Below the pieces are notes generated by a model. The model saw nothing but the letters and a program-made list of their open reading frames with translations, did no database searches and was not told the DNA's origin. The translations under genes were made by a program, and so were the position numbers. 45,311 nt of DNA from Chloroflexales bacterium (GTDB lineage: Bacteria; Chloroflexota; Chloroflexia; Chloroflexales; Chloroflexaceae), in NCBI GenBank assembly GCA_022360155.1, contig JAKSDJ010000486.1, positions 1-45,311 of the forward strand, in the 5' to 3' direction. This document shows positions 20,997 through 38,662 of the stretch, one piece after another. Within the stretch, counting starts at the first letter, position 1; each line of letters starts with the position of its first letter.

Positions 20997-22151
20997 ATGT
21001 TTTGGCGATGGTTGAAGCAAGAGAATTCGTCTAGTCCGACCACGAATGGTCGCTATCGTCATGGCAATGACCATCTGATCGAGCTACGTCAGGTCATCAA
21101 GACCTACCAGAATGCAGCGGGTAGCTTCGCCGCGCTAAAAGGCGTCGACCTGCGGGTCGATCGGGGCGAGTTCGTCGCCGTAATCGGCAAGTCGGGCAGC
21201 GGGAAGTCGACGCTGATCAACATGGTCACGGGGATTGATCGGCCCAGCTCCGGCGAAGTGCTAGTGGGCGATACCGCCATTCATACGCTGACCGAGGGGC
21301 AAATGGCCGTCTGGCGCGGTCGCACCTTGGGCATTATCTTCCAGTTCTTTCAGCTTCTGCCTACGCTCACCGTGGTCGAGAATGTGATGCTGCCGATGGA
21401 TTTTTGCGACATGTGGACGCCGCGCGAGCGTCACACGCGGGCCATGCGGCTGCTCGAACAGGTTGACCTGACCGACCACGCCAACAAACTGCCCTCGGCC
21501 CTCTCCGGCGGGCAACAGCAGCGTGCGGCGATTGCCCGCGCCCTCGCCAATGATCCGCCCATCCTGGTCGCCGACGAGCCAACCGGCAACCTCGACTCGA
21601 AAACCGCCGAGTCGGTTGTTCAGCTCTTCGAGCAACTGGTGCAGGAAGGCAAGACCATCATGATGGTCACGCACGACACTGACCTGGCCCGGCGGGCGAC
21701 CCGCTCGGTCATTGTCGCCGATGGCGAGATCATCAATCAGTACGTCGCCCAGGCGCTCTCCAAGCTGTCGATGGACCAGTTGGCGAAAGTCATGCGCCAG
21801 GTCAAACTACGCAGCTATCACCCGGGTGAAACCATCCTCACCCACGGCGAACAGGCCGACACGTTCTACATTGTCACGAAAGGCGCGGTGTTGATTACGC
21901 TGCACCATCCCGATGGACAAGAGATTGTCGTCGCTCGTTTGACCAGTGGAGAATACTTCGGTGAGGCGGGGTTGCTGCAAGGCGGTACACGGATGGCGAC
22001 CGTCCACGCCGATCCCGATCTTGGCGTCGAGGTCGTTCTGCTCCACCAGGACGAGTTTCATACATTGTTGGGCGAGTCCGAGTCGACTCGGCAAGAGTTG
22101 GATCGGGTGATGCAGCAGCGCCTCGCTGCCCAAGCTGCTATGCGCGATTAG
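20997..22151 (+). CDS. ABC transporter ATPase (LolD/MacB-like) fused to a cyclic-nucleotide-binding domain
   Basis: 384 residues. Residues 27-250 are a full ABC ATPase: Walker A GKSGSGKS (64-71), a Q-loop, signature LSGGQQQR (169-176), Walker B ILVADEPT with the catalytic Glu194, and switch His226 (VTHD). It resembles LolD/MacB-type ATPases. Residues ~255-375 form a cNMP-binding domain with YHPGETIL and the phosphate cassette [16 protein letters not shown], which keeps the canonical Arg (Arg332) before the A-T-V. No ABC permease gene adjoins it, so its partner is elsewhere. The design suggests that ligand binding gates the ATPase. The ribosome site (GAGG) is far (13 bases) from the ATG. Confidence 0.85.
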
Positions 22152-31946: not shown

Positions 31947-32960
31947 TTAGAGGCCGAGCGCTTCTTCGGCTCGTGTTAGGGCAGCGCGTAGCATGATGAT
32001 TTCCTCGCGCAGACGATCACGCTCGGCATGGTGCTGGAAGCGATCACCAACCCGAAGTTGGTATTTGCAGAAGGCCAGTTCGGTGATCAAATGATAAAAC
32101 CGGACAACCTGTTGGTAGCGGGTTAGGTTGCCGCTCAACAGCGTCTGAAAAAGCACGTGCGCCCGGTGCGGGGCAGAAATAACCTCGGCATAATCGGCAG
32201 CGCTGATTATGCCCATCGCAATCTCTTCATCCAGCTCCTGCACCATCCAACTGCGTTCATGCCGCCAAGCAAGCACCGCCACCGCCAACACAGCAGCTAC
32301 ACCCGATGATTGCACAATCCACGAAAATGCAATCCCGGCTAATTGATAGTTCACCGCATAGTTATGCAAGCCATGCATAAATACCGCCAGGAGCAGGGCT
32401 AATGGCAGAGCGACATAGCCGAGCCAACGTTGCGGCGCATAGCGGACTGCGCCAAGAGCTAGTCCGACAATGCTGGTGAAGAAGGCGTGGTTGAAGCCAA
32501 AGAAGACGCTGCGCAGCCAGAATAGACCGCCAAAATTATCGGGGTAAGCGACAAAGAAGAGCAGATTCTCGGTCATCGAGAAGCCAAAGCCGATCAATGA
32601 GCCATAGACAATCCCATCGAGCGGACCATCGAACTCACGGCGAGCAAAGAGGAACAATGCTACCAGCGCTACCGCTTTGAGACCTTCCTCGACGAGCGGC
32701 GCCAGGCCCCACGTCTGAAATCCTGGACCGAGCGACGAGTTGAAGATCGGCGCGTCCAGAACAAACATAACGATGACTGCTAGCACGACTGCAGGCAGCG
32801 ACCCCCACAAAAAAGCCGCGACCAAGAGCGGAAGCGGTTCTTTTTCATAACGGTCGAGCCACCAAATCAGCAATGTATAGATAATCGTTGGTACAACCGC
32901 AGCGAGAATGGCAATGAGGACAAACATGACGATACACGCTGAACGACGAACGGTGAACAT
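31947..32960 (-). CDS. PrsW-family intramembrane metalloprotease-like protein
   Basis: 337 residues, about eight membrane helices then a ~70-residue cytoplasmic helical tail. Conserved PrsW positions are present: LVEEGLKA (Glu91, Glu92, Lys95), TENLLF (Glu131, Asn132), FNHAFFT (His158) and FMHGLHN (His196, His199). Family members such as Bacillus PrsW cut anti-sigma factors inside the membrane. No anti-sigma factor adjoins it here. The long tail is unlike the shortest members and could control access. Start codon uncertain: a Met at position 12 is another choice. It lies 39 bases after the AOR gene in the same direction, perhaps in one transcript. Confidence 0.85.
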   Translation of the reverse strand: MFTVRRSACIVMFVLIAILAAVVPTIIYTLLIWWLDRYEKEPLPLLVAAFLWGSLPAVVLAVIVMFVLDAPIFNSSLGPGFQTWGLAPLVEEGLKAVALVALFLFARREFDGPLDGIVYGSLIGFGFSMTENLLFFVAYPDNFGGLFWLRSVFFGFNHAFFTSIVGLALGAVRYAPQRWLGYVALPLALLLAVFMHGLHNYAVNYQLAGIAFSWIVQSSGVAAVLAVAVLAWRHERSWMVQELDEEIAMGIISAADYAEVISAPHRAHVLFQTLLSGNLTRYQQVVRFYHLITELAFCKYQLRVGDRFQHHAERDRLREEIIMLRAALTRAEEALGL

Positions 32961-34805: not shown

Positions 34806-34868
34806 GAGACCCCTTGGTATCGGCAAGCTGCAACAATTCATCCATGCTCTCGATGGCCTAGAGCATTG

Positions 34869-34948
34869 CTATTGTACACCATGCCTTGAGACAGAGCAAT
34901 ATTTACCCACAGACCAGAATAAGGCATGGTACAATAGAATTATATAAT
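34869..34948. promoter_or_regulatory. Divergent control region with a long imperfect inverted repeat
   Basis: CTATTGTAcaCCATGCCTT (34869-34887, with two extra bases) is the reverse complement of AAGGCATGGTACAATAG (34921-34937). Each arm carries an outward TACAAT -10-like box. On the minus side TTGCTC-17 bp-TACAAT makes a fair promoter for AOR. On the plus side TATAAT (34943-34948) lacks a -35, consistent with an activator bound over the arm. It probably lets one regulator control both divergent genes. Confidence 0.55.
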
Positions 34949-34998
34949 ACCATTAACTAAGCAAGTTCGTGCGCTTCTGCACGAGATGAGGTGGCACG

Positions 34999-36459
34999 AT
35001 GGCGTCAAAAATGGCGCAAAGGCTACCATCCTCTAAATCAGGTATCCAGAGCATCGCGCTTGTTCAGCAGCACGAAGATCAGCGGCACGAGGGACTAGCA
35101 ACACTGCAAAGGTTAGATTGTTTGCATCAGGTCTCGACTGAAGAGTTGAGTCGCCTGCTTGATCTTTGTGTATTGCGCGCATTTATTCCCGGTGCAACAC
35201 TGATCAGTGAGTGTGAGGCCAGCCGCTTCTTGTACTTTTTGTTACAAGGAGATGTTCAATTAACCTCGCATGACCGCGATGGTCATGAGATATTGGTCGG
35301 TGTGCTTGGTCGCGGCGATTGTTGTGGCGAGGGACAACTCTTTGGCAACTTCTTCCGCCGCGCGCGGGTCCGCGCCAATACTGTCTGCTATGCGCTCCAG
35401 GTTGCGCTATCCGACATACAAGTGCTGCTTCCGTCTCTGCCAACCCTTCGTGCAGCCCTCCGCGAGATCCATCGCCGCCGTATGGTCGAGAGCACCCTGG
35501 TTCGTGTACCGCTCTTTAGTCAGCTACTCCCGCTGGAACGACTGGCCCTAGCTGCGCTGCTCCAAAGGTCGCATTACCCCCGTGGCAGCGTGATTGTGCG
35601 GCATGGCGAGCCCGGCGAGGCGCTTTGTTTGATCGAGTCTGGCCAGATTGTTGTCGAACAGAACGGCGTAACGATAGCCTCTCTACAAGAGGGCGACTTC
35701 TTTGGCGAAATTGCGTTGCTTTCCGATCGACCACATAACGCAACAGTGCGGGCTTTCACTGCGACCGACATCCTGGCTCTGCCCGCCGCCGATTTTCACT
35801 GGCTTCTAGTGCAACGACCTGAACTTGAAGCGCAATTACGGACTGTTGTCGAGCAACGTTTGAACCATAATGCCACGATGCGCACCGACCAAGACCGCGT
35901 GCGGAATTTGACCTTAGCGGTTGAAAACGGCTTGTTGCGTGGAAGTCACCTGTTAGTCCGCACCCCGGAGCTTTGCCCGCCGGGTTGCCGCATCTGTGAG
36001 GACGCCTGCGCTTCTCGGCATGGTCAAACCCGCTTGCACCTCAACGGTGTACAAATTGGCGATTTCGACGTCGTCGATACATGTCGACAGTGTCGGATTG
36101 ATGCCGAATGTGTCGAGGTTTGTCCTGAAGACGCCATTCAGTGGAATGATCAGGGCGCGCTGATAATCACTGATAAATGTACTGGCTGCGGCGAATGTGT
36201 ACTCGCCTGCCCCTATGATGCTGTGACACAAAAGCCGCTTCAACCTCATCAGCCTAACGGACCGCTCTGGAAACTCTGGTCGGCGATGCAGCAGCGGCTC
36301 AACAATCAACGCCATATCATCCCCCTCGATCCGGTCCAGTATACATACCGCGCCGATAAATGCGACTTGTGCCACAACTATGATAACTTAGCATGTCTCA
36401 GCGCTTGTCCAACCGGTTCACTCCGGCTCATGCCGGTTGAAGAGCTATTCCCTCTCTGA
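34999..36459 (+). CDS. Two cyclic-nucleotide-binding-like domains fused to a four-cluster polyferredoxin
   Basis: 486 residues. Residues ~40-160 and ~170-290 are two cNMP-binding folds (GATLISE, RFLYFLLQGDVQL, CGEGQLFGNFFRRARVRA; then RGSVIVRHGEPGEALCLIESG, shown here in part, and FGEIALLSDRPHNATV). No helix-turn-helix follows, so this is not a CRP-type DNA binder. Residues 320-475 have 16 cysteines in four groups (326/330/333/337, 362/365/371/375, 394/397/400/404, 455/458/466/470), the pattern of four-cluster ferredoxin subunits such as DmsB. In the second domain the usual phosphate-binding Arg is His246. It is divergent to AOR, so its Fe-S part is probably AOR's electron carrier, with the cNMP part sensing or gating. 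The name of a known family is not certain. Confidence 0.85.
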   Translation: MASKMAQRLPSSKSGIQSIALVQQHEDQRHEGLATLQRLDCLHQVSTEELSRLLDLCVLRAFIPGATLISECEASRFLYFLLQGDVQLTSHDRDGHEILVGVLGRGDCCGEGQLFGNFFRRARVRANTVCYALQVALSDIQVLLPSLPTLRAALREIHRRRMVESTLVRVPLFSQLLPLERLALAALLQRSHYPRGSVIVRHGEPGEALCLIESGQIVVEQNGVTIASLQEGDFFGEIALLSDRPHNATVRAFTATDILALPAADFHWLLVQRPELEAQLRTVVEQRLNHNATMRTDQDRVRNLTLAVENGLLRGSHLLVRTPELCPPGCRICEDACASRHGQTRLHLNGVQIGDFDVVDTCRQCRIDAECVEVCPEDAIQWNDQGALIITDKCTGCGECVLACPYDAVTQKPLQPHQPNGPLWKLWSAMQQRLNNQRHIIPLDPVQYTYRADKCDLCHNYDNLACLSACPTGSLRLMPVEELFPL

Positions 36460-36871: not shown

Positions 36872-38662
36872 ATGCATAACTATTTACGACGAGGAATTAT
36901 TGGGTTACTGGCAGGGTTGGCAAGCAGTACTGTCCTGATGGCCACACTGGACCAGATGATCGTAGGCATTGGGCTCGGCGGACTGCTCGGCATCGGGTAC
37001 GCTCTGGCCTTCCGCTCCGAGCGCTACGCCTATGCCGACAGCATTATGACTACGGCGGCCTTTGGCATTCCGCTCTGGGGTTTGTTCAGTGTGATTATAC
37101 TGCCCTTTCTGATGGGCCAGGGGCCACAGTGGAATGCCGCCGGAATGCTGTCATTGTTTCCTGCTCTTGTGGGATGGGTGCTTTATGGGGCTGGGTTAGG
37201 GCTTCTCAATCAGGCCTTCAACGATCTGTTCTTGCAGTTGCTAGGCCCAGAACCTAGCAAAAAACCGCAGCCACGCGAGATCAAGACTCGAATTGTCATC
37301 CTAGGGGGCGGTTTTGCCGGGGTGACCACAGCACAGTACCTTGAGCAAGAATTTGGCCCGGACCCCACAGTATCTTTCACGCTTATCAGTGATACCAATG
37401 CGCTGCTCTTCACCCCTATGCTAGCCGAGGTAGCATCGAGCAGCCTGGAGCCAGGTGAAATCAGTACACCGCTACGTACGTCGCTGCGCCGCACCGATGT
37501 CATCCGCCAACACATAGAGCGGATCGATCTGGAGAATCGACAGGTTCTGCTTGCAGCAGACGATCAATCGCCTGCACGTCAGGCGCCGTTCGATCACTTG
37601 GTGCTTGCGCTTGGCTCGGTCTCGAACTTCCTCGGCCTAACCAATGTCGAGAACCATTCCCTCGACTTCAAAAGCTTGCGCGACGCGATCATCATTCGCA
37701 ACCACGTGATTGATATGTTCGAGCGGGCCGACCGTGAGCCAGACCCCGAGCTTCGCAAGACGCTGTTGACCTTCGTGATTGCGGGAGGAGGCTTTGCAGG
37801 AGCCGAATTGGCCGGCGGCTTAAACGACTTTGTACGGGGCATGTTGGCTTTCTACCCTAACATTACGCCTGAAGACGTACAAATCGTCCTAGTTCACTCT
37901 CGCGAACGCATCTTACCGGAGCTGAGTGAACCGCTCGCCGACTACGCGCTCAAGAAAATGGAGGAGCGCGGTGTAACCTTCAAACTTAATACCCGTGTCG
38001 CTGATGCACATTCCAGCGGCGTGATCCTCAATCCGACTGAAGAGATCCGTGCGCAAACCCTCGTTTGGACTGCTGGTACAACCCCCAACCCGCTGATCAA
38101 GCAATTGCCAGTCGAACGCAATAAGCGCGGCGCGTTGATAGTGGACGGAACGATGGCGGCGCCCGGTTTTCCAGGAGTTTGGGCTCTAGGTGACTGTGCA
38201 GCCGTACCCAACGCCAAAGACGGCCAGATCAGCCCGCCAACAGCTCAGTTCGCGTTACGTCAGGCCTATACGCTAGCCTACAATATCCACGCCAGCATAA
38301 CAGGCAAACCGCTCAAGACCTTCGACTTTGCTGTGCAGGGTGTATTATGCGTTATTGGTCACCATAATGCCTGTGCTGAACTCGTTATTCCATTTTCCGG
38401 CGACAAGACCATGCGTTTCTCCGGACTCTTCGCCTGGTTTTTGTGGCGTGGCGTCTACTTGAGCAAATTGCCAGGCTTGGAGCGTAAAGTCCGCGTGGTC
38501 CTTGCATGGATTGTCGAGTTGTTCTTCCCGCGCGATATCGTACAGACCATTGATATCAGGCGTCCCTTCACGCAGCGTCGCACTGTGCAGTCCGACGCTC
38601 AGAGCATGCCGGCAGAAGTTGTAGCTAGCGGCGCCAAACAATTGGAACAAGGACGAATGTAA
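36872..38662 (+). CDS. ndh: Type II NADH dehydrogenase (NDH-2) with N-terminal membrane module
   Basis: 596 residues. The flavoenzyme body starts at 139 with [15 protein letters not shown] (FAD), has a second nucleotide fold at [15 protein letters not shown] (NADH) and the family's ALGDCA motif. It oxidises NADH and reduces quinone at the membrane without pumping protons. The C-terminal part ([18 protein letters not shown]) is the usual membrane-binding amphipathic region. Unusually, residues 10-115 add three to four membrane helices ([28 protein letters not shown]), the same module that is repeated in the next gene. Ribosome site GGAAGGGG. Its stop is one base before the next start, so the two genes form an operon. 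Confidence 0.9.

Follow-up and report, generated by a model that had tools for sequence, protein, structure and literature searches.

The stretch of DNA analysed here (the window; 45,311 nucleotides of contig JAKSDJ010000486.1 from a bacterium of the order Chloroflexales) encodes a protein in which two domains resembling those that bind cyclic nucleotides (cNMP-binding or CNB domains) are fused to a ferredoxin-like part with 16 cysteines (Table 1), and the question it raises is what a sensor-like pair of domains could be doing on an electron carrier. In bacteria the cyclic-nucleotide effectors known so far are for the most part transcription factors and channels, together with a small number of enzymes. 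We propose that the fusion protein may be a ligand-controlled electron relay, which here would serve an aldehyde oxidoreductase encoded by the adjacent divergent gene, a reading to which, taken as a whole, we give an even chance.

Table 1. Positions in the window of the fusion gene, its parts and the neighbouring features discussed in the text.
Feature	Position	Strand	Details
Tandem-cNMP/polyferredoxin fusion protein P0001	34999..36459	+	486 aa; orthologs aligned
cNMP domain A, about residues 36-150	35104..35448	+	E111 (35329-35331), R120 (35356-35358)
cNMP domain B, about residues 165-290	35491..35868	+	E237 (35707-35709), H246 for Arg (35734-35736)
Four-cluster ferredoxin part, residues 316-486	35944..36456	+	16 Cys, four motifs
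Aldehyde ferredoxin oxidoreductase family (tungsten) large subunit P0002	33000..34841	-	613 aa; AFOR_N + AFOR_C (Pfam)
Divergent intergenic region, 157 bp	34842..34998	.	-10-like boxes both ways
Extended -10-like box toward fusion, GGTACAAT	34928-34935	+	promoter-like by consensus match only
-10-like box toward oxidoreductase, TACAAT	34871-34876	-	promoter-like by consensus match only
PrsW-type intramembrane protease	31947-32960	-	downstream of oxidoreductase
NDH-2-like flavoprotein	36872-38662	+	Pyr_redox_2, NDH2_C
ABC-transporter-type ATPase	20997-22151	+	C-terminal cNMP-type domain

The fusion gene is real and begins with an ATG. A Pfam scan of its product matches cNMP_binding over two regions (E = 7.1e-38) along with a number of Fer4 families (Fer4_7, E = 8.4e-13), with no helix-turn-helix or other DNA-binding domain and no output domain (helix-turn-helix, kinase or other) among the matches. 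NCBIfam CRP models match over the CNB part only, so that the combination of a CNB domain with a helix-turn-helix, which marks the CRP/FNR proteins, is absent. Residues 30-300 are predicted as a block with pLDDT mostly about 80-94, and when this block is searched with Foldseek, PKA/PKG-type regulatory proteins make up nearly all of the best 50 chains (best E = 3.1e-20). Superposition of the CNB pair on yeast Bcy1 with VIA-align gives a Z of 18.4 over 245 residues with an rmsd of 8.2 Å, therefore the arrangement of the two domains differs from that in Bcy1, and for single CNB domains Z reaches 20.5. The two cNMP-like folds and the lack of a DNA-binding domain that an earlier note had read from the sequence are thus confirmed, and the likeness is to the tandem CNB domains of PKA/PKG regulators.

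The ferredoxin part is poorly modelled (pLDDT <50), and its fold assignment therefore rests on sequence. Its 16 cysteines form four motifs, at residues 326-330-333-337 (C-x3-C-x2-C-x3-C), 362-365-371-375 (C-x2-C-x5-C-x3-C), 394-397-400-404 (C-x2-C-x2-C-x3-C) and 455-458-466-470 (C-x2-C-x7-C-x3-C). The relatives of this part found by HMMER in the PDB are HycB4/HycB3 (best E = 1.4e-11), AorA of Aromatoleum (8c0z_C, E = 1e-8) and two entries named 'Oxidoreductase, Fe-S subunit'. The fusion protein has the four [4Fe-4S] sites by which the small subunit WorS is defined in PMC13328260, and it is very probably a four-cluster electron carrier.

The fusion is not exclusive to the window. Of 158 genomes searched in the class, 82 belong to the order and 72 of these carry it, a hand count that includes partial or interrupted copies (G002, G020, G021, G038, G059 and G074), with 39/41 genomes in family f1, 8/9 in f2, 6/6 in f3 and 19/26 in f4; among the remaining 76 genomes, one (G087) has it. 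From these 73 fusion-bearing genomes, 53 copies were aligned, one per genome, the others being partial, broken or outside the set fetched, and all 16 cysteines are invariant in all 53, as would suit the four-cluster ferredoxin that the earlier note had described. A scan of genome contigs gave 30 loci, and among the 17 ORFs read, that of L038, a contig of the MAG 'Chloroflexi bacterium AL-N1', alone was the fusion, the other 16 having one to five cysteines. The fusion gene is old and conserved in its order, and the same architecture is also present in other Chloroflexota and among genomes grouped around alphaproteobacterial, myxococcal and acidobacterial loci.

Trees of the two parts speak to how they came together. 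In the tree of the ferredoxin part 40 fusion rows form one clade against seven outgroup rows (96/85), and again against two WorS rows together with FdhB and HyfA (99/96), the tree program warning of long branches; the WorS rows, from L250 and L251 beside oxidoreductase genes, are the two that passed our filter among 30 oxidoreductase loci. The ferredoxin trees place the copies of this order and G087 on one branch, and the cNMP tree recovers the same main groups, thus the same grouping holds for both parts. Since all 40 fusion rows form one clade apart from the two WorS rows, these sequences favour one fusion event between the CNB pair and the four-cluster part and give no support to a descent of the ferredoxin part from WorS.

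When a profile built from 18 fusion copies was run against 400 genomes from the phylum, 59 genomes matched at E up to 1e-35, of which 38 are of this order. In family f30 (genomes of 4.4-13.7 Mb) there are full-length relatives that run from an N-terminal two-cluster ferredoxin through the CNB pair to the four-cluster part, and at the two loci annotated (L164 and L165) the gene is flanked on one side by that of a Pyr_redox_2/FHA flavoprotein and on the other by that of a Ferric_reduct-like membrane protein. Reading frames of about 1.39 kaa at L166:8199-12389 (-) and L167:2109-6260 (+) are consistent with the flavoprotein and the cNMP-polyferredoxin being in one chain. A tblastn search of plasmids located the CNB pair and four-cluster part on 12 Sphingobium plasmids; on plasmid pMSHV of S. 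herbicidovorans (L186) the protein (P0003, 825 residues) is a flavoprotein-cNMPx2-polyferredoxin. It is followed by a b561-like membrane protein (a weak match, E = 1.4e-4), by a multiheme protein of the cytochrome c3/c7 type whose N terminus is FHA-like (Yop-YscD_cpl), and by a metallophosphoesterase; the counterpart of this last protein in a sister plasmid is annotated CpdA. When the shared part was made into a profile (A5), it matched at E up to 1e-60 in 32 of the 337 genomes sampled at class level around G509 (Aestuariivirga locus), and, at phylum level, in 8 of the 195 around G512 (Archangium) and 13 of the 199 around G516 (Thermoanaerobaculia), where some matches span part of the profile only and the group names are those of the locus titles. 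Among 20 of the A5 loci that were read, a membrane b-type protein is beside the gene or fused to it in 12, an ORF with two or more CxxCH motifs lies within the fetched stretch in 19 and a CpdA-like gene is present in two; a CpdA-like phosphodiesterase occurs at four of all the loci inspected.

Several other associations were seen at such loci. Multiheme c-type cytochromes with an FHA-like N terminus, assigned by Pfam in L186 and by similarity in L227 and L229, adjoin the cNMP-polyferredoxin gene at L186:11249-13048, L227:3325-5103 and L229:10782-13025; a DUF6909 protein (E = 7e-253) is encoded near an f30 module at L165:13546-15519; and in other Chloroflexota tandem cNMP domains are fused to membrane peptidases (M50, PrsW; L178:6907-9039 and L179:3145-4848). 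An anti-phage role was also considered and set aside, the PADLOC matches being to Pycsar protein models and confined to the shared cNMP domain.

No membrane b-cytochrome or multiheme gene lies beside the window's fusion, and a membrane b-cytochrome profile gave no full match in the 158 genomes of the class, partial matches (E of 1.8e-5 or worse) being found in 10 of them. Within a widespread family of tandem-cNMP polyferredoxins, whose members look soluble on paper, the window copy represents a pared-down branch. Our literature search, partial in its coverage and with most subscription journals outside it, found no description of this family.

The divergent neighbour of the fusion gene, an oxidoreductase of the tungsten enzyme family, keeps its cluster cysteines (C294, C297, C301 and C499), and a close homologue is present in 32 of the 41 f1 genomes. 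In 27 of the 32 f1 genomes holding both genes they lie divergently side by side with gaps of 121-865 bp, the exceptions being G002, G004, G021 and G037, where they are not adjacent, and G024, where both are at contig ends. The fusion gene is therefore next to a WorL-type gene, as a WorS gene would be, in the window's genome and in those 27. In the window the intergenic region carries the extended -10-like TGGTACAAT toward the fusion, where the box GGTA[CT]AAT is present, and only a relaxed form of this box toward the oxidoreductase. Of the 27 f1 intergenic regions, 18 have GGTA[CT]AAT facing the fusion, 17 have it facing the oxidoreductase and 11 have both, where shuffles preserving base content only give expectations of 0.155, 0.14 and 0, respectively; the corresponding counts are 0, 1 and 0 for 12 divergent gaps elsewhere in 20 stretches (the window and 19 f1 loci). 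Because of the relatedness of the f1 genomes, they are not independent in the box and pairing counts. The two facing -10-like boxes also explain an inverted repeat in this region.

These data make the oxidoreductase a fairly plausible partner of the fusion protein in f1. However, outside f1 the two genes are adjacent in none of the 21 genomes that have both, and 19 of the 72 fusion-bearing genomes have no close oxidoreductase homologue (both hand counts), therefore the oxidoreductase is not an obligatory partner. The same counts would suit an incidental pairing, in which the two genes simply share a divergent promoter region in f1 and the fusion protein serves some other redox enzyme, as would the NDH-2-like flavoprotein gene that follows the fusion on the same strand at a distance of about 0.4 kb; this flavoprotein could be an electron partner in the window's genome, although across the loci compared it is not conserved beside the fusion. 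Against an incidental pairing are its retention, with back-to-back -10-like boxes, in 27 of the 32 f1 genomes and the fact that no other conserved functional neighbour of the fusion was found in the loci compared, and on balance we consider it doubtful. One partner conserved across the whole order is ruled out, as the genes flanking the fusion vary among f2, f3 and f4 and seem to be unrelated.

Other genes near the fusion or its partner deserve mention. A frequent f1 neighbour (c2) is, from its sequence, presumably glutamate 5-kinase. The neighbour family of the PrsW-type protease in the window recurs at G005, G029 and G030, and the cNMP-type domain of the window's ABC-transporter-type ATPase is similar to domain A. 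The window's genome also encodes another, only distantly related aldehyde ferredoxin oxidoreductase (28-29% identity) at G000:C205:4633-6366, with no four-cluster small subunit seen nearby.

In domain A, residue 111 is Glu in 46 of the 53 aligned copies and residue 120 is Arg in 44, the two occurring together in 42; we take E111 to be the canonical Glu and R120 to be at the position of the canonical phosphate-binding Arg (Glu+9, the PKA spacing), and domain A has the Glu and phosphate Arg of a PKA-type pocket. The earlier note had seen the CCGEGQLF cassette of this domain as unusual, but it keeps the CRP-like GD..GE..LF pattern and, as E111 and R120 are retained, is a CRP-type cassette, in which C108 is common (40/53) and C109 alone is out of the ordinary (16/53). 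For domain B the note was right that His246, within FGEIALLSDRPHNATV, occupies the place of PKA's phosphate-binding Arg. The His is present in 48 of 53 copies and E237 in 51, jointly in 48, and the Glu/Arg combination of a PKA-type pocket is missing from this domain, Arg at 246 being found in one copy (G087), which has Glu/Arg in both domains.

Outside the order, most homologues carry the Glu/Arg pair in domain A and many carry it in domain B as well, and the majority of the alphaproteobacterial and acidobacterial copies read have it in both; the f30 copies keep the domain A pair, except for one of six (L167, with Tyr for Arg), and have lost that of domain B. The Glu/Arg pockets of homologues elsewhere suggest that the ancestor probably had two cyclic-nucleotide pockets, and the His of domain B is probably a change of this order that was afterwards retained. 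Because E111 and R120 are kept and domain A of the homologues is mostly Glu/Arg, a cyclic nucleotide is the likeliest ligand for domain A, and we think it reasonably probable that this domain binds one. With slightly more assurance we would say that domain B does not bind cAMP or cGMP in the classical way. The earlier suggestion that the ligand may be neither cAMP nor cGMP thus fits domain B, but not domain A.

It could be, instead, that the protein is a constitutive electron carrier whose CNB pair is a structural or dimerisation module with no ligand control. CNB-like domains without a ligand are known, and the domain A pair is lost in 11 of the 53 copies, while in two g34 copies that were read, from genomes with no class III cyclase match, both pairs are gone. 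However, the pairs are kept jointly in most copies of either domain, as given above, and H246 has an alignment entropy of 0.67 among highly variable neighbours at 243, 244 and 247 (2.49-3.07). Moreover, in f2 domain A is degenerate (pair lost in 4/4 copies), yet the Glu/His of domain B stays in 4/4; in f4 the domain A pair is lost in 5/9 copies and the domain B Glu/His kept in 7/9. We therefore consider such a constitutive carrier unlikely.

Class III cyclases were matched in 65 of the 82 genomes of the order, with seven matches in the window's genome, and 12 fusion-bearing genomes have no match. The f2 genomes have 14-16 cyclase matches despite the loss of the domain A pair, and the f3 genomes G050-G053 have none and keep the pair, so pocket and cyclase do not track cleanly, and cyclase content as an explanation of pocket loss fits only partly. 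The retention of the pair in G050-G053 is a mark against a simple cAMP or cGMP story.

Control could also run in reverse, the state of the clusters altering the CNB domains, which would then act on another protein in the manner of FNR. The CNB domains do resemble CRP and the PKA regulatory subunit (PKA-R) and a polyferredoxin could report electron supply, but Pfam finds no output domain on which such a signal could be passed, four-cluster relay subunits normally conduct, and the homologues are placed in electron-transfer operons; we regard this as quite improbable. That domain B might be a nucleoside pocket like that of trypanosomatid PKA-R, for which its lost Arg and the presence of trypanosomatid PKA-R structures (some with guanosine) among the Foldseek matches could be cited, is very unlikely and was rejected, because the signature Glu, which according to PMC10959531 is conserved there in place of the Ala at PKA A202/A326, is absent at the matching residue 239 (Ala or Ser in 51/53 copies).

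The most economical reading that these observations suggest is a sensor acting on electron flow. In a ligand-controlled relay of this kind, electrons from a reduced partner would enter the C-terminal half, pass through its four [4Fe-4S] clusters and exit to another partner. The CNB pair at the N terminus, which resembles a PKA regulatory subunit in its build, would bind small ligands, most likely a cyclic nucleotide in domain A, with the ligand or role of domain B adapted to its Glu/His pair. Ligand binding would move the CNB pair, as in PKA-R, and so open or close access to the cluster chain or to a partner, and for such gating we see roughly equal prospects of its proving right or wrong. Elsewhere a member of this family usually has a flavoprotein on one side and, on the other, a membrane cytochrome b and multiheme cytochromes. 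That set is missing beside the f1 fusion gene, where the likely partner would be the divergent tungsten-family oxidoreductase, with which we infer physical contact and of which the fusion would be a regulated small (Fe-S) subunit.

More speculatively, cyclic nucleotides may gate electron flow directly and post-translationally in an undescribed carrier family of several phyla, domain B having been re-purposed once (Arg to His) for another ligand in this order and the unit recruited to throttle a tungsten aldehyde oxidoreductase; as a whole we hold this extended view tentatively, with the balance somewhat against it. If true, a relay controlled by cyclic nucleotides would couple second messengers directly to redox flow, bypassing transcription. 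For a group of tungsten-family oxidoreductases with no assigned physiology known to us, the fusion would also offer a candidate for the small subunit and for a point of control.

Comparison with known systems helps to place the protein. With the PKA/PKG regulators (Bcy1, PKA RI-alpha) it shares two CNB folds in series and the Glu/Arg pair of domain A, but it is fused to a ferredoxin where theirs binds a kinase, and domain B has His for Arg. As regards CRP/FNR, CRP is the best-scoring NCBIfam model for domain A, which is similar to CRP structures, but the window protein has no DNA-binding domain. HycB3/HycB4 of the hydrogen-dependent CO2 reductase are the best match of its ferredoxin part to a solved structure by sequence, although they are not known to have CNB domains, and serve a different partner.

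A four-cluster subunit is used by some relatives of the oxidoreductase, namely the class II/III WOR (PMC13328260) and the AorA nanowire (PMC10413684), and the fusion protein resembles WorS/AorA as a four-cluster relay near a WorL-type gene in f1; it differs in its extra CNB pair, in its divergent gene and in forming a clade apart from the two WorS rows. Closest is P0003 of Sphingobium with its set of b-cytochrome, cytochrome c3 and metallophosphoesterase, which has the same CNB pair and four-cluster part and belongs to the same clade, but carries an N-terminal flavoprotein, Glu/Arg in both pockets, and membrane and multiheme neighbours.
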